From Elusimicrobia bacterium RIFOXYA2_FULL_39_19 (GTDB taxonomy: Bacteria; Elusimicrobiota; Endomicrobiia; CG1-02-37-114; XYA2-FULL-39-19): a DNA stretch of 64,000 nt. Location of the stretch: NCBI GenBank assembly GCA_001800285.1, contig MGVC01000081.1, positions 52,856 to 116,855 on the forward strand, read 5' to 3'. Positions 45,742-56,011 of this stretch are shown here, piece after piece. The position numbers and the translations under genes were made by a program. The notes beneath the pieces are model-generated. The model searched no databases. It was not told the DNA's origin and was given only the letters and a program-made list of their open reading frames with translations. The stretch's first letter is position 1. Each line of letters starts with the position of its first letter.

Positions 45742-45770
45742 TTGACAAAAAAGTAATGTAGATATATAAT
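45742..45770 (+). promoter_or_regulatory. Sigma-70-type promoter of gdhA
   Basis: TTGACA (45742-45747), 17-nt spacer, TATAAT (45765-45770); exact consensus. Confidence 0.85.
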
Positions 45771-45790
45771 AATAACAAGAAAAAAGATAA

Positions 45791-45846
45791 GGACAAAGAC
45801 GTCCATAAAGTTCCCCGGAAGAGGGATTTTGTGGACGTCTTTTTTA
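45791..45846 (+). promoter_or_regulatory. gdhA leader: ANTAR-type hexaloop hairpin overlapping an intrinsic terminator
   Basis: Hairpin GGAC-AAAGAC-GTCC (45791-45804; loop A1, G4). Terminator 45798-45839, about 17-bp stem GACGTCCATAAAGTTCC/GGGATTTTGTGGACGTC, then T-run. Nucleotides 45798-45804 are shared. Confidence 0.8.
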
Positions 45847-45944
45847 TTGTATATAGCAAGGAAGCAGAAAATCAGCAACAGCAGTAAATGGGCACGTTGG
45901 CGTGTCTGCCGTTTAAAAAACATTGAGGTTAGGGGGATTAGGTT

Positions 45945-47294
45945 ATGTTAAACGAAGTATTAGCAAAAGTCATACAGAAGAACCCGGGAGAATCAGAGTA
46001 TTTGCAGGCAGTAGAAGAAGTTATGGAATCACTTCAGCCTACAGTTAAAAAGCACCCGGAATTTGTAAAAGCAAAGATTTATGAAAGAATAGTGGAGCCG
46101 GACAGAGTAATTATGTTCAGGGTTCCGTGGGTTGACGATAAAGGCGAAGTTCAGGTTAACAGGGGATTCAGAGTACAGTTTAATAATGCAATCGGGCCTT
46201 ACAAAGGCGGCTTAAGGTTTCACCCCAGCGTTAATCTGGGCATAATCAAGTTCCTTGGTTTTGAGCAGATATTTAAAAATGCGTTAACAACACTTCCAAT
46301 GGGCGGTGGAAAAGGCGGCTGTGATTTTGACCCCAAAGGAAAATCAGATAATGAAGTTATGAGGTTCTGTCAGGCATTCATGAGAGAACTTTTCAGGCAT
46401 ATCGGCCCGGATACAGATGTACCGGCAGGAGATATCGGCGTGGGCGGAAGAGAAATTGGTTACATGTATGGTTATTATAAAAAAATCATCAATGAACATA
46501 CCGGCGTTCTTACCGGCAAAGGGCTTGAATGGGGCGGAAGCCTAATAAGGCCTGAGGCAACAGGTTATGGCGCTACCTATTTTGCGGCAGAAATGTTAGC
46601 AACGCGCAACAAAGATTTTAAAGGTAAAACTGTGGCCGTAAGCGGTTCTGGAAATGTGGCCCAGTATACCATAGAAAAAGTAACACAGCTTGGCGGAAAG
46701 GTAATCTGTGCTTCCGATTCGTGCGGTACTGTAATTGATGAAAAGGGCTTTGATAAGGACAAACTAGCTTTTTTAATGGAGCTTAAAAATACAAAAAGAT
46801 GCAGAATAAACGAATATGCCGATAAATATGCCGTAAAATATTTTGAAGGCAAGAGCGTGTGGCAGGTATTAAGGGAACAGAGCATTAAAGTAGACGTGGC
46901 TTTTCCTGACGCAACGCAAAACGAAATAAACGGGGATGACGCCCAATCACTGGTAAATAAAGGCTGTATATGTGTTTCTGAAGGTGCCAATATGCCTTCT
47001 ACACCTGATGCAGTAAAAATCTTTATTGATAACAACGTGCTTTACGGTCCTGGAAAAGCGGCCAATGCCGGAGGGGTTGCTACCTCAGGCCTTGAAATGA
47101 GCCAAAACAGCGAAAGGCTGTCCTGGACCAGAGAAGAAGTTGACACCAGATTGCTTAATATAATGAAGAGTATTCATAAATCCTGCCTTGACGCCTCTGA
47201 AGCTTATGGCGCAAAAGGGAATTATGTTGTAGGAGCAAACATTTCCGGGTTTCTAAAAGTTGCAAAGGCAATGTTAGCCTTCGGAATTGTTTAA
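45945..47294 (+). CDS. gdhA: NADP-type glutamate dehydrogenase
   Basis: GPYKGGLRFHPSVNLGIIKFLGFEQIFKNALTTLPMGGGKGGCDFDPKGKSD. Confidence 0.97.
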   Translation: MLNEVLAKVIQKNPGESEYLQAVEEVMESLQPTVKKHPEFVKAKIYERIVEPDRVIMFRVPWVDDKGEVQVNRGFRVQFNNAIGPYKGGLRFHPSVNLGIIKFLGFEQIFKNALTTLPMGGGKGGCDFDPKGKSDNEVMRFCQAFMRELFRHIGPDTDVPAGDIGVGGREIGYMYGYYKKIINEHTGVLTGKGLEWGGSLIRPEATGYGATYFAAEMLATRNKDFKGKTVAVSGSGNVAQYTIEKVTQLGGKVICASDSCGTVIDEKGFDKDKLAFLMELKNTKRCRINEYADKYAVKYFEGKSVWQVLREQSIKVDVAFPDATQNEINGDDAQSLVNKGCICVSEGANMPSTPDAVKIFIDNNVLYGPGKAANAGGVATSGLEMSQNSERLSWTREEVDTRLLNIMKSIHKSCLDASEAYGAKGNYVVGANISGFLKVAKAMLAFGIV

Positions 47295-47307
47295 CACCCT
47301 CCGCGGA

Positions 47308-47425
47308 AATCCACGGTTATAAAGCCGTGGATGGATAGCGTTCGTCCGCTTCGGGTATTTCAGCGTAGAGATTGTTCCTGCGCTGTAGATTAGGCTTGAA
47401 TCCACGCCTACGAAGGCGTGGAGCT
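47308..47425. mobile_element. Candidate non-autonomous IS200/IS605-like element (pair of terminal hairpins)
   Basis: Two perfect 8-bp hairpins: ATCCACGG-ttataaag-CCGTGGAT and TCCACGCC-tacgaa-GGCGTGGA, resembling subterminal hairpins of IS200/IS605 family ends. No transposase. Confidence 0.35.
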
Positions 47426-47493
47426 TCAAACGGCAATTTGTTTAGTAGAGAATTTGATAATCTATAATAATGGTAGATGGATAAAGGATTTGA

Positions 47494-47598
47494 GGATACA
47501 TGGAAGTATCCTTAAGCCCTAAGTTACATTGAAGTAAAATTAGAACACTGACGTTCTTGAATGTCCTTTTTTATCGGGACAGGCAGGAACGTTTTTTT
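47494..47598 (+). promoter_or_regulatory. Dual-hairpin ANTAR target RNA plus intrinsic terminator in the leader of the ANTAR-glnA operon
   Basis: P1 GGATAC-ATGGAA-GTATCC (47494-47511). P2 AGAAC-ACTGAC-GTTCT (47542-47557). Both hexaloops have A1 and G4. Terminator ACGTTC...GAACGT (47551-47592) plus T-run shares 47551-47556 with P2. Confidence 0.85.
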
Positions 47599-47615
47599 TG
47601 GTAACGGGAAAGCTA

Positions 47616-48346
47616 TGGTAAAAACAAAAATAGAAAAAATGAATAAAAATGAACAGCCGTATATACAAATGACTGAGGCATTAATTAAGGTCGGTAATTT
47701 TATTGTATCAAGCAGTTCCTTTGAAGAAATGCTCAATAACATTGTTAAGACTATTGCTCAAGCATCTGGTGCTAAAATATGTTTGCTTATGTTTTATGAC
47801 GAAATTAAAAAAGAGCAGGCATTAAAAGCCTCGTATGGGTTAAATGTAGAATGCTTGACAGCTGTTGAGTTGGCAATAGGTAAAAACATTAATGATGCGG
47901 TAGCAAAAGAAAAGAAACCTGTTATTGTTTCAAATGTGTTGGAAGACTCTAGATTTGCAAATTCAGAAATAATTCGCAAAGAAAAGCTGTGTACTCTGCT
48001 TGCTTTGCCTTTATTGATGAAAGACAAGGTGCAGGGTATGATTATGCTTTACAACGAAAGAGTGAAAAAATATTCACAGAATGAGCTTAATATACTGCAG
48101 GTGCTTGCTAACCAGTCAATGCTGGTTATAGAAAATTCAAATTTATTGAAAAGAGCCGTTGATGCCGAAGAAGCACTTGAAGCCAGAAAACTGATTGAAA
48201 GAGCAAAAGGCATTCTTGTGAAAACCCAGGGAATGGATGAGGATGATGCCTACCGCACCATCCACCGCAAGAGTATGGACATGAGAAGATCTATGAAAGA
48301 AATTGCCGAAGCAATAATTCTTTCTAATGAAATAAGAAGAAAATAA
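47616..48346 (+). CDS. GAF-ANTAR domain antitermination regulator
   Basis: GAF region plus C-terminal ANTAR ARKLIERAKGILVKTQGMDEDDAYRTIHRKSMDMRRSMKEIAEAII. The ORF start at 47561 would lie inside the leader terminator; ATG 47616 or 47640 is more plausible. Confidence 0.9.
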
Positions 48347-48418
48347 AAAGGCACGTTGGCGTGCTTCCAGACGCAGATGTCTCCAGATAATGATGTTTAA
48401 ATTAAATGGAGGAAATGT

Positions 48419-48565
48419 ATGGAAGAAAAAGGAATTTGCATGTCTTGCGGTAATGAAAAAGAATGTATGTACATTAAGCCTGATTCTGTTATTTTTGAAT
48501 GTGAAGAACGTGACGCTGAAATCAAAAAAGGCAGTAAGAAAAGAAAGAAAAACACTAAAAAGTAA
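48419..48565 (+). CDS. 48-aa cysteine-containing small protein (missing from the ORF track)
   Basis: RBS ggagg; MEEKGICMSCGNEKECMYIKPDSVIFECEERDAEIKKGSKKRKKNTKK with CxxC-x6-C-x10-C pattern, between the ANTAR gene and glnA. Confidence 0.75.
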   Translation: MEEKGICMSCGNEKECMYIKPDSVIFECEERDAEIKKGSKKRKKNTKK

Positions 48566-48589
48566 ACATAAGTAAAAAGGGGTAGAAAA

Positions 48590-50041
48590 ATGCAAAAGAA
48601 AAACAGGGCAGAATTAAAAAGGTTAAATAAGCTGATAAAAGAAAACAATGTTCAGATTGTTGACCTGAAATTTAATGACCTCCTGGGCATGTGGCAGCAT
48701 TTTTCTATCCCCGTGTCGGAATTAACCGAAATTGATGACCCGGAAAAATCCATTTGGTCGGAAGGTATAGGTTTTGACGGGTCCTCAATACGCGGGTTTC
48801 AGAAAATACAGGAATCAGACATGCTTATGCAATTGGACCCATCAACGGCAGTTTTTGACCCTATATGCAAGGTTCCTACTTTAAGCATTATCTGTAATAT
48901 TTATGACCCAATTACAAAAAAACCATATTCAAGGGACCCCAGGTTCGTTGCCAGAAAGGCAGCGGAATATTTGAAAAGTACCGGTATTGCAGACGAAAGT
49001 TTTTGGGGTCCTGAAATGGAGTTCTTTATATTCAATGATGTGCGTTTTGACCAGACAGAAAATACGGGTTACTATTTTATAGATTCAAACGAAGGAGAAT
49101 GGAACACCGGCAGGGATGAAAAACCGAATTTAGGGTACAAGCTCCGCTACAAAGAAGGAGGATTTTTGGTGCCTCCTCACGATACTCTGCAGGACTTAAG
49201 AACCGAGATGATTCAGGCGCTGATGAAAGCAGGCATAGGTATTGAACTCCATCATCATGAGGTTGCTACAGCGGGCCAGTGCGAAATAGATATGAAATTT
49301 GACAAACTGGTACCAATGGCTGATAAATGCATGATGTATAAATACATTATTAAAAATGTGGCAAAAAAACACAATATGGTGGCTACTTTTATGCCTAAAC
49401 CTTTATTTGGAGATAACGGAAGCGGCATGCATGCGCATCAATCTCTATGGAAAAAAGGAAAAAATATATTTTTTGATCCTAAGGGCTACGCACTGCTGTC
49501 ACAAACAGGCAAGTATTATATCGGCGGTCTGTTGAAGCATGCTCCCGCACTTATGGCTTTATGCGCACCAACAACAAATTCATATAAACGACTTGTTCCC
49601 GGTTACGAGGCTCCGATAAACCTTGCCTATTCAGCAAGAAACCGTTCTTCTGCCATACGTATTCCGGTTTATACAAATAATCCAAAAACAAAGAGGATTG
49701 AATTCAGACCGCCGGATTGTACCTGCAATCCTTATCTTGCTTTTGCAGCAATGCTCATGGCAGGTATCGACGGTATAAAAAACAAAATAGACCCGGGGCA
49801 ACCACTGGAAAAAAATACTTATGAGCTTGCAGGAGAGGAAGCGGCAAAAGTGCCTGTGGTTCCATCTTCCCTAGAAGAATCCATAAGAGCACTAGAAAAT
49901 GATAATAAATTTCTTTTTGAAGGCGGTGTGTTTACGCCTGATGTTATAAATGTGTGGGTTAATTATAAGAGAGACAAAGAAATAGGCGAAATACGCCTAA
50001 GGCCGAATCCTTATGAATTTATTTTATACTTTGATATGTAA
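48590..50041 (+). CDS. glnA: Type I glutamine synthetase
   Basis: [65 protein letters not shown]. Confidence 0.97.
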
Positions 50042-50053
50042 CGGAGAATTAAA

Positions 50054-51133
50054 ATGCAATTAATGGCAGACAGGGATTACAAAATTTCATCGGCGTGCGG
50101 AGTGCTAGGCATAATGAATGAAAACGGCAGGCGTTTTTCCGGTGAAAACATTATGAAAGGCATTGCCCTCATGAGAGAACGGTCCAACGGGCTTGGCGGC
50201 GGTTTTGCAGCTCACGGCATTTACCCGGATTACAAGGATTATTATGCGTTTCATATGCTCTTTGAAACTGAAATTGCAAAAAACATAACGGAAGAATATT
50301 TTAAATTGCATTACAAATTCATTAAAAGCGAACCTATTCCTACACGGCAGATTCCGGAAATAAAAAACAGCCCGTTAATCTGGCGTTATTTCTTAGAGCC
50401 GAAAAATATAGGTGTATTTGAAACAGAAAGTGATTTTGTTGTCAGCACGGTTATGCATATAAACCAGAATATCAAAGATGCTTTTGTAGCGTCTTCCGGA
50501 AAAAACATGGGCGTATTCAAAGGAGTGGGTTATCCTGAAGATATAGGCAGGTTTTTCAGGCTTGAAGAGTACGGCGCCTACATTTGGACCGCGCACGGCA
50601 GGTTTCCTACAAATACGGTGGCGTGGTGGGGCGGTGCGCACCCATTTGGACTTTTAGACTGGACAGTAGTGCATAACGGGGAAATATCATCTTACGGGAT
50701 AAATAAAAGATACCTGGAAAATTACGGTTACAAATGCAGTTTCTTTACAGATACTGAAGTTATCACATATTTATTTGACCTATTAATAAGGAAGCATGAG
50801 CTTCCTATAGAAATGGCAGCCAAAGTGGTAGCGGCTACTTTCTGGAGCGAAATAGACAGGCTTCCGGAAAAACAGAAAGAACTTCATGAGACTTTAAGAA
50901 TAATTTACAGCAGTGCTTTATTAAACGGGCCGTTTGCTGTAATACTGGCAAACAACAATATGATGGTAGGCATAAATGACCGCATAAAATTAAGGCCTCT
51001 TGTAGCTGCCAGGAAAGATGATTTTGTTTTTGTTTCATCCGAAGAATCCGCCATTCGTGAAACGGAACCGGTGCTTGATGAGGTGTGGACGCCAAAAGGC
51101 GGAGAACCGGTAATTGGAAGACTGAAAATATAA
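50054..51133 (+). CDS. Class II glutamine amidotransferase (glutamate synthase domain 1)
   Basis: [73 protein letters not shown]. Confidence 0.9.
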
Positions 51134-51137
51134 AAAA

Positions 51138-51212
51138 GTGATTAAGTGATTATGTGAATAGGTGATTAGTAAAATCTTTTACTAACGACGTAACCACTAA
51201 CCACATATACAC
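51138..51212. repeat. GTGATTA/TAACCAC interspersed inverted repeat, copy 1
   Basis: gtgattaagtgattatgtgaataggtgattag...ctaacgacgtaaccactaaccacatatacac. Confidence 0.7.
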
Positions 51213-51231
51213 AAGATTATGAGGGAATAAA

Positions 51232-52773
51232 ATGGTTAAAAGAACAGCTCCTACGGAATTTATAGTTGAACGTGATGAAGATAAATGCATTCAGTGCCAG
51301 GTCTGCTGCAGAATGTGTTCCAACGATGCACATGTCTTTGAAGAAGATTTAAACGAAGTAATAACGGAACATAAAAAATGCGTAGGCTGTCACTTCTGTG
51401 AAACTTTATGCCCAACGGGTGCGCTGGAAGTAAAAAGAAGTACTTCTGAAACCAGAGCTAACGCCAACTGGACCAAAAAAGCGCTGACGGATATTACCAA
51501 ACAAGCAGAAACAGGCGGCATACTGCTTACCGGTATGGGTTGTGACAGGCCGTATCCTATTTACTGGGACCACATGCTGATAAACGCCTCCCAGGTTACC
51601 AACCCTTCCATTGACCCTCTGCGCGAGCCTATGGAATTAAAAACGTATATCGGCAAAAAACCGGACCGCATAGAAATAGTAACTCATTTGGAAAACGGCA
51701 AAATTGACCCGTCAAAAGTTGAACTGAAAACCAAACTTTCCACAATGCTTAAAATAGAAACACCCATTATGTTTTCAGCTATGTCTTACGGGTCCATAAG
51801 TTATAATGCCTGCACTTCGCTTGCCCGGGCGGCCCAGCAGTCAGGCACTCTGTATAATACCGGCGAAGGCGGCCTTCATAAGGATTTGTATAAATATGCG
51901 GGAAACACCATCGTACAGGTAGCTTCCGGAAGATTCGGCGTGCATAAACAATATCTGGAAGCAGGCGTAGCCATAGAAATTAAAATAGGCCAGGGCGCAA
52001 AACCCGGCATTGGCGGGCATTTACCCGGAGAAAAAGTATCTGAGGATGTGTCCCAGACAAGAATGATACCAGTTGGTAGTGATGCTATTTCTCCGGCCCC
52101 GCACCATGACATTTATTCCATTGAAGATTTAAGGCAGTTAATCTATGCCTTAAAAGAAGCCACCAGATATAAAAAACCAATCGGCGTAAAAATATCCGCG
52201 GTGCATAACGTAGCGCCTATAGCCAGCGGTGTAGTAAGAGCCGGCGCAGATTATGTGGTAATAGACGGTTTGCGCGGAGGCACGGGCGCTGCTCCTACGG
52301 TTATCAGAGACAATGTAGGTATTCCTATAGAACTGGCACTGGCGGTGGTTGATGCAAGGCTTAGGGAAGAGGGTGTAAGAAACCACGCGTCTATTATTGC
52401 CGCAGGCGGATTCAGAAATTCAGGAGATGTTTTGAAAGCTATTGCCCTCGGTGCAGATGCGGTTTATATAGGCACGTCAGCGCTTATTGCCATGGGCTGT
52501 CATGTATGCCAGAAATGTTACACCGGAAAATGTAACTGGGGTATTGCCACGCAGGACCCGTATTTAACTAAAAGATTAAATCCGGAAATCGGTGCTCAGA
52601 GATTATCAAACTTAATCCGGGCCTGGTCCCGCGAGATAAAAGAAATGCTCGGCGGTATGGGTATTAACTCTATAGATAGTTTAAGGGGCAACAGGGAACA
52701 ATTAAGGGCCATTGGCCTTTCAGATACAGACATGAAACTGCTGGGGTTAAAACCGGCAGGCGAAGCGTGGTAA
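51232..52773 (+). CDS. FMN-binding glutamate synthase catalytic subunit with N-terminal 2x[4Fe-4S] (archaeal type)
   Basis: CIQCQVCCRMCSNDAH...CVGCHFCETLCPTGAL; GRFGVHKQYLEAGVAIEIKIGQGAKPGIGGHLPGEKV; GADYVVIDGLRGGTGAAP. Confidence 0.92.
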   Translation: MVKRTAPTEFIVERDEDKCIQCQVCCRMCSNDAHVFEEDLNEVITEHKKCVGCHFCETLCPTGALEVKRSTSETRANANWTKKALTDITKQAETGGILLTGMGCDRPYPIYWDHMLINASQVTNPSIDPLREPMELKTYIGKKPDRIEIVTHLENGKIDPSKVELKTKLSTMLKIETPIMFSAMSYGSISYNACTSLARAAQQSGTLYNTGEGGLHKDLYKYAGNTIVQVASGRFGVHKQYLEAGVAIEIKIGQGAKPGIGGHLPGEKVSEDVSQTRMIPVGSDAISPAPHHDIYSIEDLRQLIYALKEATRYKKPIGVKISAVHNVAPIASGVVRAGADYVVIDGLRGGTGAAPTVIRDNVGIPIELALAVVDARLREEGVRNHASIIAAGGFRNSGDVLKAIALGADAVYIGTSALIAMGCHVCQKCYTGKCNWGIATQDPYLTKRLNPEIGAQRLSNLIRAWSREIKEMLGGMGINSIDSLRGNREQLRAIGLSDTDMKLLGLKPAGEAW

Positions 52774-52793
52774 TTCTGACTGAAGTAAAAAAA

Positions 52794-52915
52794 GGTGATT
52801 ATGTGATTAGTTGTTAGTGATTACGCATAGCATCATTGCAATATCCAATAAAGGGAAAAATAAGGATCAGTAAGTCTTTTACTAAACACTTAACCACGTA
52901 ACCACTAAGCACTTA
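52794..52915. repeat. GTGATTA/TAACCAC interspersed inverted repeat, copy 2
   Basis: ggtgattatgtgattagttgttagtgattacg...cttttactaaacacttaaccacgtaaccactaagcact. Confidence 0.7.
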
Positions 52916-52934
52916 TAAGGAGTAAACAAAAACC

Positions 52935-53372
52935 ATGAAAAAAATAGTGATAAGAGAGGAATATTGTATCGGGTGCAGATTATGCGAAATACACTGCCTG
53001 GTCCAGCATTCCAAATCAAAAGAAATCATTAAAGCTTATAAGGGCGAGTATCCCAAGCCTATGTCTAGGGTGAGGGTAGAACAACTGCATCATCTTTCCT
53101 TTGCCATGCAGTGCCGGCATTGTGAAGATGCGCCCTGCCTGGAAGCCTGCTTGTCAGGCGCCATGCACCGGGATAAAAAAACAGGCGCTGTGCTGTGTGA
53201 TGAAGATAAATGTGTTGGCTGCTGGATGTGCATAATGGTCTGCCCGTTCGGCGTAATAGAAAGAAATACTGAAGGCAAAAAAATCGCTTCCAAATGCGAT
53301 TTGTGCACGGGACAGGAAAAGCCTGTGTGCGTAAAAAACTGTCCAAATGAGGCTATAGTTTATGAAGAATAA
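52935..53372 (+). CDS. 4Fe-4S ferredoxin-type electron transfer subunit
   Basis: CIGCRLCEIHCLVQH, CRHCEDAPCLEACLSGAM, CVGCWMCIMVCPFGVI, KCDLCTGQEKPVCVKNCP. Confidence 0.88.
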   Translation: MKKIVIREEYCIGCRLCEIHCLVQHSKSKEIIKAYKGEYPKPMSRVRVEQLHHLSFAMQCRHCEDAPCLEACLSGAMHRDKKTGAVLCDEDKCVGCWMCIMVCPFGVIERNTEGKKIASKCDLCTGQEKPVCVKNCPNEAIVYEE

Positions 53373-54663
53373 TTCCAAGTATTTAATTATCGGCAACTCA
53401 GTGGCTGCGGTAGCGTGCGTTGAATCCATAAGAAGAACAGATGCCGAGGGTTCTATTACTCTGGTTTCTGATGAAACTTATCATACTTATTCACGCCCGC
53501 TTATTTCCTATCTTTTAGGCGGGAAAATAGGCCCGGAAAGAATGTTTTATCGTGACAATAATTTTTACACGGAAAACAATGTGAATGCTATCCTTGGAAA
53601 AAAAGCGGTAAAAATTGATGCAGATAAAAAAACTGTTGTGCTTAATGACGGTTCAGAACTGGGTTATGAAAAACTAATGATTTCTACCGGCGGTACTCCG
53701 ATAGTGCCTGACATGCCTGGAGTAAAAAGTTCAGGAGTATTTACTTTCACTACCTGGGATGACACTAACAATATTAAGGAATATATAGAAAAAAATAAGG
53801 TAAAAAAAGCAGTGGTTATCGGAGGCGGGCTGATAGGGCTGAAAGCCACGGAAGCCCTGCTGGCGCTGGATATAAAAGTAACCATACTGGAGCTCGCTGA
53901 CAGGATATTAGCTGCCACGTTTGATAAAAAGGCGTCTGCTATTATTGGGTCAGAACTGGAGAAAGTGGGTTGTGCCGTAATAACCAATAATACTGTCACC
54001 AAAATCAATGCGGCTAAAACGGGTGCAAAAAACATCAAAGAAGTAGTGCTGAAAAACAAAAAGAAGATTCCTGCAGAAATCCTGATTGTAGCTATAGGCG
54101 TAAGGCCGAATATTGAGTTTTTAAAGAGTTCGGGCATAAAAACAAACAGGGGCATTGTGGTAGATGATAAAATGCAGTCTTCCCTTAAAGACGTTTATGC
54201 CGCAGGAGACTGCTGTGAAGCGAAAGAATTTTTAAGCGGTTTGCCGCAGGTAATAGCCATTTGGCCTAGTGCTGCGCGCCAGGGCAGGATAGCAGGAAAC
54301 AATATGGCGGGCGGTACGGAAAAATATACGGGTAATCTGGCAAAAAATTCTGTAGAACTTTGCGGGGTACCTACCATTTCAGTAGGTTTGACTGATACTA
54401 CAAAAGAAAAAGCGCTTGAAGTAATAGAAGTTTATGAACCGGAAAATCTGATTTACAGGAAAGTGGTAATTAGAAATAATAAGATTGTAGGCATAGTTTT
54501 TGTAGGCAATATTACACGTGCCGGTATTTATACCGGGTTGATAAAAGACGGTGTGGATATTTCAAGTTTCAGGAGTCATATTTTAAAAGAAGATTTTGGG
54601 CTGATTTCACTGCCTAAAGAATACAGGAAACACCTGGTTTCAGGGGCGGGCATAGAGGTATAG
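53362..54663 (+). CDS. FAD/NAD(P)-dependent oxidoreductase associated with split glutamate synthase
   Basis: YLIIGNSVAAVACVESIRR, VVIGGGLIGLKATEALLALDIKVTILE, DVYAAGDCCEAKEF. Confidence 0.9.
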   Translation: MKNNSKYLIIGNSVAAVACVESIRRTDAEGSITLVSDETYHTYSRPLISYLLGGKIGPERMFYRDNNFYTENNVNAILGKKAVKIDADKKTVVLNDGSELGYEKLMISTGGTPIVPDMPGVKSSGVFTFTTWDDTNNIKEYIEKNKVKKAVVIGGGLIGLKATEALLALDIKVTILELADRILAATFDKKASAIIGSELEKVGCAVITNNTVTKINAAKTGAKNIKEVVLKNKKKIPAEILIVAIGVRPNIEFLKSSGIKTNRGIVVDDKMQSSLKDVYAAGDCCEAKEFLSGLPQVIAIWPSAARQGRIAGNNMAGGTEKYTGNLAKNSVELCGVPTISVGLTDTTKEKALEVIEVYEPENLIYRKVVIRNNKIVGIVFVGNITRAGIYTGLIKDGVDISSFRSHILKEDFGLISLPKEYRKHLVSGAGIEV

Positions 54664-55933: not shown

Positions 55934-56011
55934 GGAACAATAGTGTTCCAGCAAGTAGAATGAACTACCGTTTCAGTAAGCTTCGGTATACTTGTCGGAA
56001 CACTTTTTTAT
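55934..56011 (+). promoter_or_regulatory. amt leader attenuator: small hairpin overlapping a long intrinsic terminator
   Basis: Hairpin GGAAC-AATAGT-GTTCC (55934-55949). Terminator AGTGTTCCAGCAAGTA (55942-55957)/TACTTGTCGGAACACT (55989-56004), 15 of 16 pairs, then TTTTTT. The arms are mutually exclusive. Confidence 0.7.

Follow-up and report, generated by a model that had tools for sequence, protein, structure and literature searches.

The leader ahead of the GAF-ANTAR gene and glnA, in the 64-kb stretch of DNA analyzed here (the window), which comes from an uncultured bacterium of the Elusimicrobia type, is in all likelihood an ANTAR-controlled antitermination switch that would give ammonium assimilation a positive autoregulatory loop; protein binding, the direction of control, the signal and autoregulation are deduced from the sequence and by analogy with characterized systems. 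The hexaloop hairpins, a mutually exclusive terminator, an ANTAR domain that carries RNA-contact residues and a conserved gene arrangement were all observed. In our best judgment the leader belongs to the known ANTAR antitermination family, and its interest lies mainly in the occurrence of three-loop and one-loop variants within one gene cluster. The features are as follows.

45742 to 45770, plus strand: consensus sigma-70 promoter of gdhA, 12/12 (promoter scan)
45791 to 45804, plus strand: single hexaloop hairpin of the gdhA leader, GGAC[AAAGAC]GTCC (hexaloop scans)
45795 to 45846, plus strand: intrinsic terminator of the gdhA leader, overlapping the hexaloop hairpin (terminator fold)
45945 to 47294, plus strand: gdhA, NADP-specific glutamate dehydrogenase (NF006929, 753 bits)
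47489 to 47516, plus strand: upstream (third) hexaloop hairpin, core GGATAC[ATGGAA]GTATCC at 47494 to 47511, loop with A1 and G4 (sequence and fold)
47524 to 47537, plus strand: middle hexaloop hairpin, TTAC[ATTGAA]GTAA, the likely functional P1 or recruitment hairpin (hexaloop scan, linker length, likeness to the P1 of other leaders)
47542 to 47557, plus strand: P2, antitermination hairpin AGAAC[ACTGAC]GTTCT, overlapping the 5' arm of the terminator (sequence, covariance model, fold)
47551 to 47599, plus strand: intrinsic terminator ACGTTC...GAACGT followed by T8, mutually exclusive with P2 (fold)
47615 to 48346, plus strand: GAF-ANTAR protein, 243 amino acids from the ATG at 47615 (PF03861, 70.7 bits; PF01590, 57.1 bits)
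48420 to 48566, plus strand: small Cys-rich protein, with one relative (L036:10908-11060) at another Elusimicrobiota ANTAR locus
48590 to 50041, plus strand: glnA, type I glutamine synthetase (TIGR00653, 645.8 bits)
50054 to 54663, plus strand: glutamate synthase genes in pieces (GATase, 50054; FMN domain, 51232; Fe-S, 52935; NAD(P) oxidoreductase, 53362)
55934 to 56010, plus strand: possible third attenuator, before amtB; its terminator is overlapped by GGAAC[AATAGT]GTTCC, and GTAG[AATGAA]CTAC is also present
C5:52111-52827 (L003:10112-10816): second GAF-ANTAR gene of the genome (genome search)

Every element named in a preliminary description of this DNA was found in its place within 47480-47602, including the two hairpins that it had called P1 and P2, both with A1/G4 hexaloops; the first of these can be extended to 47489-47516. 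A scan for hexaloop hairpins closed by AC..GT pairs, with loops carrying A at position 1 and G at position 4, identified three in succession, at 47489-47516, 47524-47537 and 47542-47557, so that the leader exceeds the dual-hexaloop form (two A1/G4 hairpins with stems of at least 3 bp) by one. Dinucleotide shuffling of the 64-kb window, repeated 150 times, yielded no tandem hairpins of this kind with stems of at least 4 bp. The AC..GT closing pairs, which are required for induction of eutP (PMC3369931), are present in all three hairpins.

The spacing of the hairpins bears on which of them work together. In Enterococcus faecalis, eut P1-P2 linkers measure 5 to 12 nt and a 14-nt version drastically lowered induction (PMC3369931); a 20-nt linker extension abolished antitermination (PMC8934654), and an actinobacterial survey recorded linkers of 2 to 25 nt (PMC8164766). 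Here the middle hairpin is separated from P2 by 4 nt, a short linker slightly under the eut range, whereas the upstream hairpin lies 30 nt from P2, too far for a short-linker pair. The middle hairpin also resembles the P1 found elsewhere, for instance ATTAC[AATGAA]GTAGT in an Omnitrophota leader (L075). Because of the 4-nt linker and this likeness, the middle hairpin and P2 most likely form the canonical dual-hexaloop working pair, with the upstream hairpin as an extra, third hexaloop. The published two-hairpin ANTAR architecture invoked in the preliminary description is retained as a class, but the two hairpins that it had paired are 30 nt apart and the middle one had been overlooked. By itself the middle hairpin is weak (about -0.1 kcal/mol) and would need the protein.

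Folding of the 123-nt leader region gave -42.7 kcal/mol (z = -6.4), and none of 200 shuffles folded as well. The terminator takes its 5' arm from P2, as had been proposed, and a fold in which P2 was enforced was approximately 11 kcal/mol worse than the terminator fold; P2 and the terminator are thus mutually exclusive, and the default state of the glnA leader is predicted to be the terminated one.

Independent support came from a covariance model, R1, built from eight dual-hexaloop leaders of other genomes with the window sequence excluded; its sources were two Elusimicrobiota loci (L036 and L038), named Omnitrophota, Aerophobetes and Latescibacterota records and one unclassified bacterium. 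In these eight leaders, 97.5% of cells were paired, a percentage that arises partly by construction since the leaders were chosen for their stems, and changes on both sides were seen at 5 of 10 pairs. A covariance-model check had been suggested in the preliminary description, and R1 placed 47523-47557 first in the 64-kb window (24.2 bits, E = 0.0024); the gdhA leader was the fourth match (E = 1.2). Across 66 sources, comprising 722 kb outside model building, the glnA leader again ranked first, and the other five matches reported (L040, L064, L094, L100 and L109) were all on the plus strand and adjoined GAF-ANTAR genes, those in L040 and L094 lying directly upstream of one. When R1 was run on the window's own genome, no match was found among the 150 of 952 candidates scored. 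In a whole-genome pattern scan, no tandem AC[A..G..]GT match other than the glnA leader had clear stems. A search for AC[A..G..]GT followed by a T-run returned 69 rows genome-wide, and when the distinct places were folded, strong overlapping terminators were found only in the gdhA (-29.7 kcal/mol) and glnA (-23.4 kcal/mol) leaders, the glnA string having been lengthened to the full terminator before folding.

The arrangement is conserved in other bacteria. Relatives of the GAF-ANTAR protein are encoded in 47 of 341 Elusimicrobiota genomes and, by an alignment-based scan, in Omnitrophota, Desantisbacteria, Deltaproteobacteria, Nitrospirota and others; a scan of named genomes with the window protein alone recovered no relative, whereas the alignment as query did so. 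The homologous genes often adjoin glnA, gdh, amt, glnK or glutamate synthase genes. A script that looked for A1/G4 hairpins contributing their 3' part to a terminator as its 5' arm counted 28 such overlaps in 925 kb around GAF-ANTAR genes. Ten shuffled sets gave 0 to 2 each (mean, 0.4), and 210 kb from elsewhere in the window's own genome gave none; the script misses the glnA leader, whose terminator has internal loops, and this leader was judged by folding. Leaders of this kind lie ahead of a GAF-ANTAR gene, some of them directly, in L038, L040, L092 and L098, and others precede gdh (L102), amt (L051 and L069), glnA (L077), type III glutamine synthetase (L069 and L097), NAD synthase (L089 and L095), glutamate synthase (L074 and L102) and GATase genes. 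Of the leaders checked, about half are preceded at short distance by a near-consensus promoter (at least 10/12). Pfam, the independent covariance model and comparative genomics all bear out the leader class and its position directly before a GAF-ANTAR gene and a nitrogen operon. Some Omnitrophota leaders precede related genes for proteins of approximately 170 amino acids (L066:4967-5491, L068:4899-5420, L075:4829-5353 and L106:6930-7439), which by eye appear sigma factor-like; the one that was scanned, from L066, had no Pfam match.

A second attenuator, missing from the preliminary description, precedes gdhA (45742-45846) and consists of a consensus promoter, one hexaloop only and a strong overlapping terminator. 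A single-hexaloop version of the switch probably controls gdhA. A start site at the position implied by the promoter would leave little space in this leader to accommodate a recruitment hairpin. One-loop leaders behind strong promoters are also present in Omnitrophota (L095:4780 and L069:7626). The leader before amtB (55934-56010) is a possible degenerate ANTAR target; its overlapping loop, AATAGT, lacks G4, and we do not claim it as a canonical one.

For the protein encoded downstream, the PF03861 score of 70.7 bits exceeds the curated cut-off of 27.3 and identifies it as an ANTAR protein, and the relatives of the ANTAR part in the PDB are a putative antiterminator (1s8n), the response regulator EutV (6wsh) and the nitrate regulatory protein NasR (4akk). 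In EutV, Arg142, Lys149, Glu160 and Tyr164 coordinate or stack on loop base G4 (PMC8934654). We compared residues by reading them off an alignment, with chain numbering shifted by 2 and the contact list taken from the same paper: all four G4-contact residues are identical in the window protein, as are the further RNA contacts Lys143, Glu146 and Arg175, while Lys147 is replaced by Arg and Arg168, Asn173 and Arg177 differ. The curated families nearest to the GAF domain are PtsP and NifA, both weak matches far under their cut-offs. GAF domains of the PtsP and NifA kind have been linked to glutamine and 2-oxoglutarate; for this reason a nitrogen-status metabolite, such as 2-oxoglutarate or glutamine, is our favored guess for the ligand. 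The redox-gated input that had also been suggested gained no specific support.

No strong terminator was found between 47600 and about 54780, and no clear promoter between gdhA and the hairpins of the glnA leader. Given this lack of a good promoter, transcription through the element may begin at the gdhA promoter, which would make it an intercistronic attenuator instead of a 5' untranslated region; its position ahead of GAF-ANTAR and glnA holds, but it need not mark the 5' end of a transcript. Several other features of the cluster were noted. GC-rich palindromes, CCACGGTTATAAAGCCGTGG and CCACGCCTACGAAGGCGTGG, lie at 47311-47421, between gdhA and the glnA leader, and have no T-run. The 14-mer GGCACGTTGGCGTG, which can form a hairpin, has exactly two copies genome-wide, both in this cluster: at 45891-45904, in the gdhA 5' untranslated region, and at 48350-48363, between the GAF-ANTAR and small Cys genes. 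The small Cys-rich proteins of the window (48420-48566) and L036 (10908-11060), both in ANTAR-leader loci, have no Pfam or NCBIfam family where scanned and have a common pattern of C..C, then C, then CEE.

We propose that the nascent RNA would by default form the terminator at 47551-47599, halting transcription ahead of the GAF-ANTAR start codon. Activated by a nitrogen-status ligand of its GAF domain, such as 2-oxoglutarate or glutamine, the GAF-ANTAR protein would be recruited to the two A1/G4 hexaloops that lie upstream, at 47494-47511 and 47524-47537, before passing to P2 (47542-47557). Held folded, P2 would deprive the terminator of its 5' arm, so that polymerase would read through into the genes for GAF-ANTAR, the small Cys protein, glnA and glutamate synthase, closing a positive autoregulatory loop on ammonium assimilation. 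The evidence supports the preliminary description as to the class of element and how it probably acts; that description was incomplete on anatomy and lacked the gdhA companion.

The terminator is located between gdhA (stop at 47294) and the next gene, and with no good promoter between gdhA and the leader it could merely end the gdhA transcript, the A1/G4 hairpins being incidental and GAF-ANTAR-glnA starting downstream on its own. We regard this as highly improbable: three tandem AC[A..G..]GT hexaloops are not a chance expectation, the hairpins are recovered by a covariance model from other genomes, similar leaders stand ahead of GAF-ANTAR genes elsewhere, and only 15 nt separate the end of the T-run from the GAF-ANTAR ATG (47615). 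Still harder to credit is a metabolite riboswitch, e.g., one for glutamine or another nitrogen compound, which the position before glnA and a terminator-type expression platform would suit. At gathering thresholds Rfam identified nothing in the window but a tRNA located elsewhere, and at relaxed thresholds it gave only chance-level matches over 47200-47900, and the conserved part of the leader is the A1/G4 hexaloops alone.

A different question is which protein acts on an ANTAR antiterminator here, since there are two GAF-ANTAR proteins in this genome, which share 36% identity across the part that aligns. It is conceivable, if rather unlikely, that the regulator is the second protein (C5:52111-52827), or that both proteins act; the window protein is favored by adjacency, and the surroundings of the second gene contain no hexaloop-terminator leader. 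We retain ANTAR-controlled antitermination by the window protein as the preferred explanation.

The closest known counterparts are eutP and other eut leaders with EutV in Enterococcus, Listeria and Clostridium, which have in common with the glnA leader the A1/G4 hexaloops, the AC..GT closing pairs, a P2 that overlaps an intrinsic terminator and an ANTAR protein with the same G4-contact residues. Unlike the glnA leader with its three hexaloops, eut leaders have two, with a 5- to 12-nt linker in E. faecalis, and EutV is a receiver-ANTAR protein under the control of a histidine kinase, whereas the window protein has a GAF sensor and glnA and glutamate synthase targets. The nasF leader and NasR of Klebsiella resemble the present case in the fusion of a ligand-sensing domain to ANTAR and in antitermination of a nitrogen operon, but the NasR sensor is a NIT domain for nitrate rather than a GAF domain. 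Ramesh et al. 2012 (PMC3369931) predicted ANTAR target RNAs in Desulfotomaculum, Pelobacter and others, located before nitrogen genes that include those for glutamine and glutamate synthases; these predictions, computational and in other taxa, concern the same RNA class and gene theme. Elusimicrobiota are not mentioned in the main text of that paper, and a literature search for ANTAR in Elusimicrobiota found no relevant paper. In contrast to those predictions, the leader here is followed by the gene for the regulator itself, and this three-loop leader has a one-loop leader, that of gdhA, as its neighbor.

One GAF-ANTAR regulator might read hexaloop arrays of different length, with three loops ahead of its own gene and of glnA but a single loop ahead of gdhA, an idea that we put forward tentatively and think somewhat more likely to be wrong than right. 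If it is true, single-hexaloop ANTAR antiterminators would need no recruitment hairpin to act on polymerase during transcription, contrary to the two-loop rule of eut, and sensitivity would be tuned by loop number. Why known ANTAR targets need two loops is a question left by the EutV structure paper (PMC8934654), and the neighboring one-loop and three-loop leaders offer a test of that need. The regulator apparently controls its own gene, and the switch would place ANTAR antitermination centrally in the ammonium assimilation of little-studied phyla, among them Elusimicrobiota and Omnitrophota.
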